From Candidatus Campbelliibacteriota bacterium (lineage in GTDB: Bacteria; Patescibacteriota; Minisyncoccia; Phycocordibacterales; CSBR16-193), in NCBI GenBank assembly GCA_007125155.1, contig SLDR01000016.1, positions 1-52,026 on the forward strand: a DNA stretch of 52,026 bases, given 5' to 3'. The position numbers and the translations under genes were made by a program. Below are positions 1 through 31,522 of this stretch, piece after piece. The stretch's first letter is position 1. The number at the start of each line of letters is the position of its first letter. The notes beneath the pieces are model-generated. The model searched no databases, was not told where the DNA came from, and was given only the letters and a program-made list of their open reading frames with translations.

Positions 1-172
1 CCTCATTATCCTCATTATCCGCTTCAATGTGATCAGCCTCATACGTACCGGTCAAGATCAAAGTACCTACCACCATTCCACCGGCAACGAAAAGGGTTGC
101 AATAACAGGAATGCTTTTCATATGGAACCAAAAATACCGCTTACCGATCGCATAAAAGGCAGTATACCTCAT
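1..172 (-). CDS. Partial N-terminal part of a membrane-anchored protein
   Basis: The reading frame runs off the left edge of the window, so only about 57 N-terminal residues are visible. An aromatic/basic stretch is followed by a hydrophobic segment (roughly residues 20-42, core IPVIATLFVAGGMVVGTLIL), then an acidic tail (YEADHIEADNEDNE). This suggests an inner-membrane anchor with an extracytoplasmic acidic region. Two in-frame ATGs are possible, at 172 and 121; the later one gives a more typical short N-terminus before the membrane segment. No family can be named from this fragment. Confidence 0.5.
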   Translation of the reverse strand, partial: MRYTAFYAIGKRYFWFHMKSIPVIATLFVAGGMVVGTLILTGTYEADHIEADNEDNE

Positions 173-342
173 AGATAAATACCGGCCAAGCAGAAGTGGC
201 CCGATACAATGATCTTTCAACCGCAAGCGGATAAACCTGAAAAGCACTGCTTCATTTATTCAAACTGAAATTCATAGATCCGGTTTTTTTAGCCACATAC
301 AATGTTTTTATACCTAATCCGTAAAAAACCTAAACGGAAATG

Positions 343-371
343 TTGACAACAAAGTCTTTTTTGTCATTATT
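343..371 (+). promoter_or_regulatory. Possible promoter upstream of the ATP-grasp gene
   Basis: TTGACA at 343-348 is followed after 17 bases by ATTATT at 366-371, a poor -10 match. Further down, just before the ATP-grasp start, a hairpin GATCTTG (436-442) / CAAGATC (449-455) lies in the presumed leader. The rest of the 295-base gap (173-467) shows nothing else recognisable. Confidence 0.35.
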
Positions 372-467
372 ACACAATGCTGAAAATTTATAACTTTAGT
401 CGAAGTTAAAAACGATGACCTTAAGTTTAAAAATCGATCTTGATCGAGCAAGATCTTAAACTCACAT

Positions 468-1751
468 ATGTCCCACATAACCAGAGAAAAAAACATTATT
501 CTTCTTGTTGCTTTCGGAGTACCTCCGGGCATAAAAGAACTGAAAGAAAGCAAAAAATTAAAAGGTTACAGGTTCGCCCTGCTCCATCAGAAGAAAGTTG
601 TTGCCAAGAAACAACAGGATCTGCTGGAAGAGTTCGACATAGTATTAAGATGTAACCTCGAGTCTCATAAAGCCATTACCAAAGAACTAAAACCCTACGA
701 AGACGAACTTTTGGCCGTAACCTGCCGAGGCGAGGTGAACATTCCCGCATTCCAAAAGGTGATTCCTCATGTGCCTTATCTGATGACCCCTACCACCGAA
801 TCGCTTGAATGGTCGACTAACAAACTTAAGATGCGAAAGCGATTCTCCGCTTACGACGGTTCAATAACTCCGAAATTCATGGTGGTAAAAGACGCCAAGA
901 AAAAAACACTGAAGAATATTGAAGAGGCGGTAGGATTTCCTTTGATCATCAAACCTGTCGGCTTGGCAACAAGCCTCCTGGTAAGTGTCGCCTTTTATAA
1001 AGAAGAGATGGAAACATCCCTAAAACGAACACTTAGAAAGATACAAAAACTTCATAAGGACCTGAACGGAAGAGGCACTCCGGAAATACTGGTCGAACAG
1101 TTCATAGAAGGAAAGATGTACTCTGTTGACGCGCATGTTGGATCAAGAGGGGGGGTGATTTTTAACCCGTTCGTTTATGTAAAGACCGGACACTCCATCG
1201 GATTTGAAGATTTTTTCGCCTACCAAACAATAACACCGACAAAGTTGAACAGAAACAGCATAAAAGAGGCGAAGGAAGTAAGCATAAAGGCGATCAAAGC
1301 CCTCAGGCTTAGGAACGTTACCGCCCATATAGAACTTTTGCAAACGGAAAGCGGATGGAAAGTAATAGAGATCGGACCAAGAATGGGGGGATTCCGACAT
1401 TTGATGTACAAGCTTTCATATGACATAGACGCGGCCGCTAACGATGTCATAACAAGGATCCCGAAGAAGTTCTCGATCCCGAAGAAAGAAAAGGGTCATA
1501 CGGCGGTCTTAAAATTCTACGCCAAAAAAGAGGGACTCATAAAAAGCATAAAAGGAGTAAAGAAGGTTTGCGAACTTAAGTCCTTCCACTCCATCAGGGT
1601 CGGCAAAAAGGTCGGAGACCGGGCCGTATTCGCCAAACACGGCGGAAAAGAGATACTCAGAGTTACTCTCTTCGACCCCGATCGATCTAATCTTCTGGCT
1701 GACATAAGAAGGTGCGAACAGACAATATTCATAGCCACCGATAAAGACTGA
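468..1751 (+). CDS. ATP-grasp domain carboxylate ligase-like protein
   Basis: A 427-residue protein with the ATP-grasp layout: a Rossmann-like N-terminal part, an ATP-binding lysine in PLIIKPVGLAT (about residue 161), a VEQFIEGKMYSVD strand pair (about 207-221), and the metal-binding region AHIELL / VIEIGPRMGG (about 285-307). In ATP-grasp enzymes these segments activate a carboxylate as an acyl-phosphate for attack by an amine or thiol. The usual E-x-N metal motif reads E-I-G-P here, so the asparagine is not obvious. It resembles the biotin carboxylase/PurK/carnosine synthase-like group, but the substrate cannot be inferred. It stands alone upstream of infC with a 150-base gap. Confidence 0.75.
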   Translation: MSHITREKNIILLVAFGVPPGIKELKESKKLKGYRFALLHQKKVVAKKQQDLLEEFDIVLRCNLESHKAITKELKPYEDELLAVTCRGEVNIPAFQKVIPHVPYLMTPTTESLEWSTNKLKMRKRFSAYDGSITPKFMVVKDAKKKTLKNIEEAVGFPLIIKPVGLATSLLVSVAFYKEEMETSLKRTLRKIQKLHKDLNGRGTPEILVEQFIEGKMYSVDAHVGSRGGVIFNPFVYVKTGHSIGFEDFFAYQTITPTKLNRNSIKEAKEVSIKAIKALRLRNVTAHIELLQTESGWKVIEIGPRMGGFRHLMYKLSYDIDAAANDVITRIPKKFSIPKKEKGHTAVLKFYAKKEGLIKSIKGVKKVCELKSFHSIRVGKKVGDRAVFAKHGGKEILRVTLFDPDRSNLLADIRRCEQTIFIATDKD

Positions 1752-28720: not shown

Positions 28721-28749
28721 TTGACAAAATTCTTTCAAGTATGTATTCT
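28721..28749 (+). promoter_or_regulatory. Strong promoter of the secreted-protein cassette
   Basis: TTGACA (28721-28726), 17-base spacer, TATTCT (28744-28749): near-consensus. The predicted start is near 28756. Confidence 0.8.
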
Positions 28750-28755
28750 TTTACA

Positions 28756-28795
28756 AGCAATTTACTGTAATGTCAATTACAGTAACGATCTTGCT
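28756..28795 (+). promoter_or_regulatory. Palindrome at the transcript start: operator or 5' hairpin
   Basis: TTACTGTAA (28762-28770), six bases, TTACAGTAA (28777-28785) is a perfect 9-bp inverted repeat, extended by AGCAA (28756-28760) / TTGCT (28791-28795). It coincides with the predicted start, so it could be a dimeric repressor site or a stabilising 5' stem-loop on the mRNA. Confidence 0.6.
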
Positions 28796-28836
28796 CATTG
28801 AAAATTCATGAAACTTATATAATAAGGAGGTAAGAA

Positions 28837-29376
28837 ATGCAACAAAGACTGGCGTTCCTTTTGGGACTTGCTTTATTGGTCCTATCCGGATGCTCAGCCA
28901 AACAACCTCAAATAGTCTTCGATGACGGGACTCCCGCGCCAACAACGGTCTACATGGAAAGAAATTTCCAGACCGGAATCTCGGTGGAAGCTTACATTGC
29001 AAGAATATTGCTGGAGGAAGAAGGGTCTCGAATGGTTCCCGCTGATTATTTAAGATTGGGATTCAACGAGTTCCAAGAGCTCCCCAAGGATACTTTCGCT
29101 GTTGGCGGAAGAGTCAGAATAGTGAATCCAAATGAAAGGCCCTACACTCTATTCGTAGTCTATACAATAGACTACAAGGAAGAATCTTGGCCTTACACAG
29201 TTTCCCGAACTCTCTACATGGGAAGATCGGAAGACGGAACATTCTCCGTAAAAAGAGAGATCGAGGATACCAATCCACGGATAAACATGCGGATCGCAAT
29301 TTTGGAAGGTGAAAGTCATCAGTTTAAAGAGGAGAAGGTCCTGTTTGATTTTGAAACAGCCTTCATAAGAAAATAA
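28837..29376 (+). CDS. Lipoprotein of unknown function
   Basis: 179 residues. A hydrophobic signal (about 5-18) ends in a lipobox LSGC, so Cys19 should be lipidated and the protein anchored on the outer face of the membrane. The mature part is rich in alternating strand-like segments (VYMERNFQTGISVEAY, YTLFVVYTIDYKEE, TVSRTLYMGRSEDG) and ends DFETAFIRK, giving an expected beta-sandwich-like domain; no known family is recognised. Ribosome binding site AAGGAGGT lies just before the ATG. It is first in a three-gene cassette of exported proteins. Confidence 0.75.
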   Translation: MQQRLAFLLGLALLVLSGCSAKQPQIVFDDGTPAPTTVYMERNFQTGISVEAYIARILLEEEGSRMVPADYLRLGFNEFQELPKDTFAVGGRVRIVNPNERPYTLFVVYTIDYKEESWPYTVSRTLYMGRSEDGTFSVKREIEDTNPRINMRIAILEGESHQFKEEKVLFDFETAFIRK

Positions 29377-29549
29377 GGAGGTACGAAAATCGAAACAGTC
29401 CGGTGCCATACAAAAAAACAAACTTGGCGTGGCACCACCTTAGGGGGAGATCCCCAAACCTTAAAAGGAGGTGATGCCTGAGTAAATAAGTTTGTTTATG
29501 TTCGGCAAATGTGAATTGTGGTAAACCCGAGATCAAAAAAGGAGAAGTT
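29375..29549 (+). promoter_or_regulatory. Structured intercistronic leader with orphan Shine-Dalgarno sites
   Basis: Between the lipoprotein and the next gene lie AAGGAGG at 29375-29381 and AAGGAGGTG at 29465-29473, neither followed by a usable ATG frame. Three nested helices can form: AAACAAACTT (29416-29425) / AAGTTTGTTT (29488-29497), CACCACCTT (29433-29441) / AAGGAGGTG with one mismatch, and GGGG (29444-29447) / CCCC (29452-29455). A competing helix GGTGCCA (29402-29408) / TGGCACC (29430-29436) shares bases with the second and would free the Shine-Dalgarno. Tiny frames exist (for example ATG 29498, eight codons). Confidence 0.5.
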
Positions 29550-30491
29550 ATGAAAAGAGTTTTAAGTTTCGCTTTCGCTTTAGTGATCGCCTTTCTTCTG
29601 GCAAACCCCGCCTCGGCCTGCACCGGACCTTATTGCTCCGGTTGGTTTAATTTGGAATCGGAAGCACGTCAAGGCGTCGATGACAAAAGCTTCAGGGGTT
29701 GGAAGAACCATGGAACCATGGGATCCTATGATGCCGAAGGTTACGGCCACTCCGCCTTGAGCGGTTGGGGAGGTGACATTGAAGGTCATACGGAAGCCCT
29801 GGGCGGTGCACTCGGTAAGACCGAGAGCTACAAGTTCGATCCAGAGATCGGAGATACGAGCTTCGGTATAGGTTCGGTAAGCCAAGCGGAAGCTATCTCC
29901 GGGGCAGGATTGGAAGGAGAGATCGAAGGGAAAGGACACCTTTCCGGCTCCATAAGTGGCGGAATTGATATGAAAACCGGTGCCAATTCTTGGTACGGTG
30001 GCAACTGGAAAGATCCGGACACCCGCGGATTCGCACATCAAGGAGCCTGCGGGAGTTTCCAGGGTGCCCATAAAAGTGGAGCCGATCAAGGCTACAGCGC
30101 ATACATCAATGCGCGAGGGCTTAGCTACTCGGAATCCTACGGATATGAAATAACCCATGAGGGATTAACCACCGTAGGTAAGGGTACCAATGTCGGGACA
30201 CAAACCGCACTGGAAAGCGGTGTAGACAATATGCACCACGAAACACCGGTCGTGACCGGCGGATGGGAAACTTCCGGTATGGCGGGAACCGAAACACATC
30301 AAACTCATCATTCCGGATTCGCCACAGCCAAAGCACTCGGAGCTTATTCATGCTCAGGTCACCTCGGACAAGGATTCGAGGGAATGGTAGACGGCTACAG
30401 CCACACCTCGGTAACGACCGTGGACGGCTGGAATGGCTCGATCAACAGAGCCGAGTCTGGAATGAAAGTGGAGAGCAAGCTGATTCCTTAA
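29550..30491 (+). CDS. Secreted Gly/Ser/His-rich repeat-like protein
   Basis: The start at ATG 29550 follows AAAGGAG and begins directly with a signal peptide (MKRVLSFAFALVIAFLLANPASA), so it is preferred to the upstream in-frame start. The mature protein of about 290 residues starts CTGPYCSG and consists of short Gly-Ser-Glu-His-rich stretches with loosely repeated G-x-E/G-x-A-x-G patterns (GDIEGHTEALGGALG, GHLSGSISGGID, GMAGTETHQTHHSG), which suggests a stacked beta-strand fibre or surface protein. Four Cys are present in the mature part. No family recognised; it pairs with the next gene. Confidence 0.7.
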   Translation: MKRVLSFAFALVIAFLLANPASACTGPYCSGWFNLESEARQGVDDKSFRGWKNHGTMGSYDAEGYGHSALSGWGGDIEGHTEALGGALGKTESYKFDPEIGDTSFGIGSVSQAEAISGAGLEGEIEGKGHLSGSISGGIDMKTGANSWYGGNWKDPDTRGFAHQGACGSFQGAHKSGADQGYSAYINARGLSYSESYGYEITHEGLTTVGKGTNVGTQTALESGVDNMHHETPVVTGGWETSGMAGTETHQTHHSGFATAKALGAYSCSGHLGQGFEGMVDGYSHTSVTTVDGWNGSINRAESGMKVESKLIP

Positions 30492-30546
30492 CAAATCGGG
30501 ATGGGCTTGGGCGATCAGGTCCATCCCATCTCAAGAAGGAGGTAAT

Positions 30547-31458
30547 ATGAGAAAAATGAGATGGTCCCTGATCGCCATGATAATGGCATTATTGATCCCT
30601 CTTAAAATGGAACCTGCCGAAGCGCAGGAGACATCAGCCGAAGCACACACGGAGGCCCACCAGTATTTCTCTCCGACCTTTGAAGGATCGGAGCAGAAAA
30701 GGAACTACCCCGCTGGAATGTTGCCCGGATTTCCAATGTTGCCGGGTTACTTTTCTCAACCTCTAATGACCCATGAGTTCTCATCTTTATCTCTATTCTC
30801 TGAGATGAAGATGGAATGGACTCGAGAAGACATAATTAACTGGTCCGAAGCATCGGACCGCAGGAACGTAAATCTGAGTGCAAGAAGCACTCTGAAAGGT
30901 CTCGGAAGTTCCGACCGTCTAAAGTTGGTGATGGAGAGACCGCAAGCCTATGAGTTTATCGGCATGTTGGTAGCGAACGCGACCAGGGCCGAAACTCCAT
31001 CAGAGGCGGTGTTCTCCGTCCTGGCGGAAGAAGCCCTCCTTCACGGTGCCAACATAATGGTACCGATGAACGAAGGTGCTCGCCGAGTGCTCGAGGCTTC
31101 CGGTTGGGGAGTTTCACTCGGGGCGACATGGGTCCAGATAGGTGGAGGCGACGAGAGAGGTGCCGGGGTCGGTACCGCCGGTATCGGCTACGCCCGGGGG
31201 CAGAGCTCGCATCGACACGAACCGTTTGCCCGTGTCATGATCGCCAGAATATCCCCCGAGCAATACGCCCGACTGGGTGCTCCGGAACCGGAAAAGGTCA
31301 GAGATGAAATAGGACTTCCCGAAGCCGAACTGCTTATGGAGAACAATGAGCTTCTCCGTAAAATGATCGAGCAGAGGGACTACGAGATAAAACAGCGGGA
31401 GAGGATGTTGCATGACCTGCAACGAAAAACCCCTCCGCCCGTTCCTGGTAAAGGCTGA
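30547..31458 (+). CDS. Secreted protein of unknown function with coiled-coil tail
   Basis: 303 residues with a signal peptide (about 1-26, ending AEAQ) and AAGGAGGTAAT before the ATG. The mature part has a disordered start, a mixed alpha/beta middle (about 95-195) with EEALLHGANIMVPMNEGARRVLE followed by a glycine-rich sheet-like segment (WGVSLGATWVQIGGGDERGAGVG), and a helix predicted to coil (about 255-290), ending in a proline-rich tail. The alternation resembles uncharacterised exported proteins that pair with Gly-rich secreted proteins, but I cannot name a family. It closes the cassette and is followed by a strong terminator. Confidence 0.7.
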   Translation: MRKMRWSLIAMIMALLIPLKMEPAEAQETSAEAHTEAHQYFSPTFEGSEQKRNYPAGMLPGFPMLPGYFSQPLMTHEFSSLSLFSEMKMEWTREDIINWSEASDRRNVNLSARSTLKGLGSSDRLKLVMERPQAYEFIGMLVANATRAETPSEAVFSVLAEEALLHGANIMVPMNEGARRVLEASGWGVSLGATWVQIGGGDERGAGVGTAGIGYARGQSSHRHEPFARVMIARISPEQYARLGAPEPEKVRDEIGLPEAELLMENNELLRKMIEQRDYEIKQRERMLHDLQRKTPPPVPGKG

Positions 31459-31490
31459 TAAAGTTTCATGAATACTGTACATTAAAAAAC

Positions 31491-31522
31491 AAAGAGGTTG
31501 ACTCGGCCGAGTCAACCTCTTT
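31491..31522. terminator. Perfect 32-bp palindromic terminator
   Basis: The two 16-base halves AAAGAGGTTGACTCGG and CCGAGTCAACCTCTTT (31491-31522) are exact complements, followed by a T-rich run (TTCTTTTT). It ends the secreted cassette. Confidence 0.85.

Follow-up and report, generated by a model that had tools for sequence, protein, structure and literature searches.

A genus-specific operon for three exported proteins with Shine-Dalgarno sites in a bacterium whose 16S rRNA tail lacks the anti-Shine-Dalgarno sequence

A set of three genes for exported proteins, reaching from promoter to terminator, occupies positions 28721–31522 of the forward strand in the window (the whole 52,026-nt stretch of DNA that was analysed). 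The set is real and, among the genomes sampled, is kept in only one small group of ultra-small bacteria. Its genes carry canonical Shine-Dalgarno (SD) sites in a genome whose 16S rRNA has lost the anti-SD sequence, and a structured RNA lies between the first two of them. The explanation that we favour, with about even confidence, is that of a genus-specific exported operon that was inserted between recJ and rnhA, has since been inherited under purifying selection and belongs to a minority of genes with SD sites.

The operon and its insertion site

The elements of the operon are listed below; G001 is a congener (SKVL01, a Campbellbacterium) whose habitat we take, from the isolate name, to be a soda lake.

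28721–28749, forward strand: σ70-type promoter TTGACA-17-TATTCT (consensus scan, score 10/12)
28762–28785, forward strand: leader hairpin TTACTGTAAT-GTCA-ATTACAGTAA (folds in the window)
28795–28810, forward strand: conserved boxA-like leader element TCATTGAAAATTCATG (TCTTTGACAATTCATG in G001)
28837–29376, forward strand: gene 1, an open reading frame for a lipoprotein of 179 aa with lipobox L-S-G-C19
29550–30491, forward strand: gene 2, an open reading frame for a Gly/Ser/His-rich secreted protein of 313 aa with a Sec signal peptide
30498–30527, forward strand: 13-bp hairpin between genes 2 and 3 (RNAfold, window sequence)
30547–31458, forward strand: gene 3, an open reading frame for a secreted protein of 303 aa with a signal peptide, a “GAN” core (about residues 130–235) and a C-terminal helix (257–294)
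31491–31522, forward strand: perfect 32-bp palindrome, a bidirectional intrinsic terminator common to the operon and the convergent recJ (exact palindrome)

The near-consensus promoter and the perfect palindromic terminator of the original prediction were thus both recovered, the palindrome being flanked by T-rich sequence on both sides. The G001 promoter reads TTGACA-N16-GTATTCTTnTACA; its hexamers match those of the window, and the −35 and −10 elements and GTATTCTTnTACAAGC are kept while the spacer has diverged. No second copy of the promoter within three mismatches was found in either genome. The equivalent leader position in G001 holds a hairpin of different sequence. The boxA-like element resembles CCTTTGACAACTAAAT, located 5′ of the 16S rRNA gene in genome G002, and may putatively act in antitermination of the NusB/S10-dependent kind. 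The 13-bp hairpin between genes 2 and 3 has no T run 3′ of it.

All three genes are present in G001. The assembly of that genome breaks inside the operon, with about 200 bp missing. One contig carries rnhA and gene 1 together with the greater part of gene 2, the other recJ and the greater part of gene 3; it is from these contigs that the order and flanks of the operon are seen to be alike in the two species, as are its promoter and leader. At third codon positions the operon sequences of the two species are about 37–47% identical, which is near random, as against 67–89% at second positions, and nonsynonymous divergence in the operon genes is well under silent divergence. This contrast between codon positions means that the genes are real and selected. 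Amino-acid identity to the G001 orthologs is 61% for gene 1, 48% for gene 2 and 75% for gene 3, the last of which evolves about as slowly as RecJ (78%).

Among 98 near relatives, gene 3 was detected only in the own genome and in one congener, which was also the sole return of a GTDB scan. The gene 3 profile retrieved nothing credible from 380 genomes across the phylum, and the gene 2 profile nothing beyond the two congeners from 297 genomes of the order. The operon is present, then, in two species. The recurrent co-occurrence anticipated in the original prediction held for G001, where the three genes are found together, and did not extend to a wider recurrence of the gene neighbourhood, the set being confined to a single genus.

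Across the order recJ and rnhA are same-strand neighbours, and the cassette lies opposite in strand to both. The gap between them measures 17 and 63 bp in two genomes of the same family that do not have the cassette and 64–538 bp in three other genomes, and four more genomes hold unrelated genes there. Since recJ and rnhA are elsewhere either adjacent or flank unrelated genes, the cassette arrived, or arose, in this genus, and it looks like a genus-level insertion. In G013 and G008 (loci L049 and L050), which belong to other families, an ABC transporter set and TrmB-like regulators were recognised by eye at the junction, contents that suggest an insertion-prone site.

Further afield, a lipoprotein gene of G002 (L188, 10685–11356), which has a 10-nt SD match and encodes what looks by eye like a trypsin-like protease sequence, separates the metallo-β-lactamase gene from comEC; the same pair is adjacent in the window.

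The exported proteins

The product of gene 1 carries a Sec signal, a lipobox and the +1 Cys (LSGC19 in the window, MSGC in the G001 ortholog) and is by sequence the lipoprotein that had been predicted. The Sec-type signal sequences of genes 2 and 3 were called by inspection. With 19% Gly, 11% Ser and 5% His in its mature part, the gene 2 protein has the composition ascribed to it earlier; the repeat-like pattern ascribed along with it was not borne out, its best self-match (35) being no stronger than the shuffled mean (32). A single-sequence AlphaFold model of this protein predicted no fold (mean pLDDT 33). The model of the gene 3 protein (mean pLDDT 40) is likewise too weak for a fold, and its best-scoring part is the helical C-terminal tail at residues 257–294.

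Sequence searches of Pfam, NCBIfam, PHROGs and PDB returned no credible relative of any of the three proteins, which still match no family that can be named, and neither tblastn against plasmid and phage collections nor IMG/VR scans returned a relative. The gene 3 core, in which a helix ending in GAN is followed by a hydrophobic strand, may resemble exported “GAN” domains of the RcsF/YbjQ/DUF4156 type; no Pfam or PDB match of this kind was obtained at E ≤ 10, and the model is too weak for comparison. Type IV pili, surface structures that Patescibacteria use in episymbiosis (PMC12206443), are encoded close by in the own genome. The cassette proteins differ from their components in having Sec or lipoprotein signals and no prepilin N-methylation motifs; none of the three matched a pilin or pilus component in Pfam or NCBIfam, in contrast to the pilins encoded nearby, which do.

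An assembly at the cell surface would be the most natural reading of three exported proteins that are conserved together, the lipoprotein first. The lipoprotein would be anchored in the membrane, on its outer face, where the Gly-rich protein and that of gene 3, once exported, would assemble with it. Of the original proposal, the self-contained, conserved and co-occurring set of exported proteins is supported; the surface fibre or host-attachment structure is a possible reading of it, for which the models gave no fold, the self-matches no repeat signal and the sampled genomes no recurrence beyond one genus. Exported genus-specific operons are to be expected in episymbiont-like bacteria, where they are candidates for host contact but also common dark matter.

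An intergenic structured RNA

The gap between genes 1 and 2 contains two features.

29404–29507, forward strand: structured RNA of about 104 nt, a long rod ending in a three-way junction (folding, covariation with G001)
29464–29475, forward strand: 12-mer AAAGGAGGTGAT, complementary to the canonical 16S 3′ end and part of AAACCTTnAAAGGAGGTGATGCCTG

The intergenic sequences of the own genome and of G001 each fold independently into a like rod with a junction at its tip, and in both species the minimum free energy lies about 5 sd below that of flank-shuffled controls. Comparison of the two species yielded 24 common pairs, with 17 unchanged, six changed on both sides, one changed on one side and none broken, in a manual alignment that was fitted to the structure and therefore leans towards it (the G001 sequence there is short by one A of an unpaired loop). 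No Rfam family scored above its gathering score, and none was credible at a relaxed threshold.

The tip motif AAACCTTnAAAGGAGGTGATGCCTG is identical in G001 at 24 of 25 nt, and the 12-nt complement of the canonical 16S tail, AAAGGAGGUGAU, occurs once in the sampled sequence of each congener. Pairing of the 12-mer AAAGGAGGTGAT amounts to −18.7 kcal/mol with the canonical anti-SD and to −3.1 kcal/mol with the organism's own tail. Such an element would most likely adjust how strongly genes 2 and 3 are translated compared with gene 1.

A possible short frame at 29374–29480, ending in QTLKGGDA-stop (QTFKGGDAC in G001), overlaps the RNA. A small ORF with this ending in the 29377–29549 gap was considered, together with a selenocysteine reading of the TGA/TGC codon, and discarded: conservation extends to almost every third codon position and is accounted for by the RNA structure, the window offers no good start codon, and the frame stands in a different relation to gene 1 in each of the two species. 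This difference in frame also led to the rejection of read-through from gene 1.

Shine-Dalgarno sites, the 16S rRNA tail and known systems

The SD sites of the cassette are the following.

28824–28831, forward strand: SD site of gene 1, AAGGAGGT (AGAGGAGGG in G001)
29539–29544, forward strand: SD site of gene 2, AAGGAG, a six-base match (GAAGGAGAACGTTATG in G001)
30536–30543, forward strand: SD site of gene 3, AAGGAGGT

As can be seen, a GGAGG-type site (AAGGAG for gene 2) is present 5–10 nt 5′ of each start, and those of genes 1 and 2 are kept in G001. Pairing to the canonical anti-SD was calculated as −12.5 kcal/mol for gene 1 (−2.1 to the own 16S tail) and −13.6 kcal/mol for gene 3. Very few of the 55 ORFs of the window have any SD site besides the cassette genes, and the class comprises about 5% of genes genome-wide, which agrees with the contrast to most neighbours drawn in the original prediction. 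This observation is the most important part of that prediction, whose self-contained exported set stands but which overlooked both what the SD sites mean at the scale of the genome and the intergenic RNA.

At the position where ...TGGATCACCTCCTTT stands in most bacteria, the own 16S rRNA has ...GGAAGCTGGTCGTGGAATATATCGAAAG. It ends in ...GUGGAAUAUAUCGAAAG, in which CCUCC is not found, and a tail ending near GGAAUAUAUC is the 16S end expected under anti-SD loss. None of the 30 informative 16S tails, which represent 28 families of the order and include those of the own genome and of the closed genome G005, contained CCUCC (CCTCC in DNA); G015, having no readable tail, was left out. Canonical initiation by SD and anti-SD is thus represented at the cassette genes by its SD sites and has no counterpart in the CCUCC of the own 16S rRNA.

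The derived tail common to contig C26 of the own genome (L060, L061) and 29 relatives is roughly GGA(A/T)(T/C)A(A/T)TTC. An insertion that includes a LAGLIDADG-like ORF (recognised by eye) splits the own 16S rRNA gene (L060, about 1–780, minus strand), and insertions of such kind have been reported for CPR rRNA genes (PMC11270868).

SD statistics were obtained from stretches of 528 kb (own genome), 507 kb (G001), 100 kb (G002) and 400 kb (G005). Most genes of the own genome have no SD site. Weak matches are no commoner than controls (182 runs of four or more, versus 156 with a reversed motif and 194 far upstream), and runs of seven or more precede 25 of 515 ORFs, versus 2 and 4, and runs of eight or more 14 starts, versus 1 and 2. 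For runs of seven or more the figure for G001 is 17, versus 7 and 2 in the controls; the excess in G005, a member of another family, is at most a trace (5 versus 2 and 2). Of the SD genes with a reciprocal best hit in G001, 7 of 11 retained an SD site there, compared with 11 of 231 other pairs (p = 1e-6). In eight aligned ortholog pairs, of which L123 is the weakest case as it looks like coding sequence of the upstream gene, identity is 0.55 at −15 to −5, 0.32 at −25 to −15 and 0.38 further upstream; the AGGAGG core is largely kept and its flanks are randomised. Since the motif outlasts its surroundings, where a neutral relic would lose it, the SD sites are selected, and we infer that they are read at all.

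Membrane and exported proteins are not enriched in the SD class (13 of 31 versus 146 of 462, p = 0.24), and a boxA/GATCTTT leader, tried as a general mark of the class, proved weak at best. Other strong-SD genes of the own genome lie at L093 12777–13076, L106 1801–2451, L113 4487–5820, L114 13784–14659, L121 1405–5908 and L122 8278–10881. Products at these loci include a MraZ-like protein (by eye), a LysM/YkuD L,D-transpeptidase, two adjacent SPASM proteins and small membrane proteins, and many of the genes are solitary, behind promoter-like sequence.

A specialised ribosome, a small RNA or an AAGGAGG-recognising protein could read the SD sites and the extended SD of the intergenic RNA, which would place accessory genes under a control of their own. 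The sequence specificity of the SD excess relative to the reversed motif, the normal SD spacing (5–10 nt), the far stronger pairing of the extended SD with the canonical anti-SD than with the own tail and a precedent in Flavobacteria, where strong SDs are reserved for one gene (PMC9976891), are all consistent with such a reader. It is rather unlikely nonetheless. No second 16S gene was found in the own genome, G002 or the closed G005, and inspection of SD-like contexts revealed no RNA that could serve as a reader by way of a conserved anti-SD.

Still less likely is that the cassette and the other SD genes are relics from SD-using bacteria, their SD sites being idle leftovers. SD genes are indeed fast-evolving (median ortholog identity of 49% versus 72.5%), 20 of 31 have no ortholog in the sampled G001, a separate promoter is often seen in their listed upstream regions (TTGACA is enriched within 170 bp, in 9 of 48 versus 60 of 928, p = 0.005), and relatives carry differing accessory genes at the recJ-rnhA junction. 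A dead relic, however, would not keep AGGAGG cores and a 25-nt intergenic motif while silent sites and upstream flanks are randomised. Contamination as a source of SD genes was rejected for the cassette, which lies between recJ and rnhA in two assemblies. That the operon serves competence as an accessory of DNA uptake is improbable: comEC, a ComEC-type metallo-β-lactamase gene, rnhA and recJ are among its neighbours and pilus genes lie 5–10 kb away, but genomes of the same family conserve this neighbourhood in the absence of the cassette, and little can be read from proximity in a region that is also rich in genes for ribosomal proteins and glycolysis.

In the explanation that we favour, the genus-specific operon, equipped with a promoter, leader, internal RNA element and terminator of its own, would have entered the ancestral recJ-rnhA junction on the strand opposite to both genes and would then have been inherited and kept under purifying selection. 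A single mRNA would start at 28721, pass through the structured leader and end at 31522. The cassette would belong to the class of about 5% of genes, fast-evolving and mostly lineage-specific, that keep canonical SD sites despite anti-SD loss. A broader proposal, which we put forward tentatively and hold to be doubtful, is that one family, in an order whose ribosomes have lost the anti-SD, keeps a second translation class of lineage-specific genes, whose selected canonical SD sites would be read by a novel factor, RNA or ribosome, possibly that of another cell; the operon RNA with its 12-nt anti-16S sequence would be part of it.

As a protein set, the cassette is one more genus-specific exported operon, and it is the translation signals that make it noteworthy. 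Flavobacteriales use SD sites selectively at rpsU/bS21, with a strong SD close to −20 kcal/mol (McNutt et al. 2023, PMC9976891). The genome studied here is similar in being mostly SD-ignoring, with few strong-SD genes and a very strong SD at a chosen place (−18.7 kcal/mol). In Flavobacteriales, however, bS21 occludes an anti-SD that is itself intact, and the strong SD is usually confined to one gene, whereas in the present genome the anti-SD has been lost and SD sites occur at about 5% of genes; the mechanism of that precedent needs an intact anti-SD. A second likeness is to the SD-scarce organisms of category iv in the survey PMC10783764, which have no CCUCC core and few SD sites; the main text of the survey makes no mention of Patescibacteria or Parcubacteria. 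A conserved SD-bearing minority such as that seen here was not met in the passages considered, and absence from the literature searched is no proof of novelty. Selection for SD sites in an accessory class of genes without an anti-SD contradicts the simple rule of SD decay after anti-SD loss, and the class provides a concrete set of mRNAs, together with a conserved RNA element, for asking how the ribosomes of Parcubacteria choose start codons.
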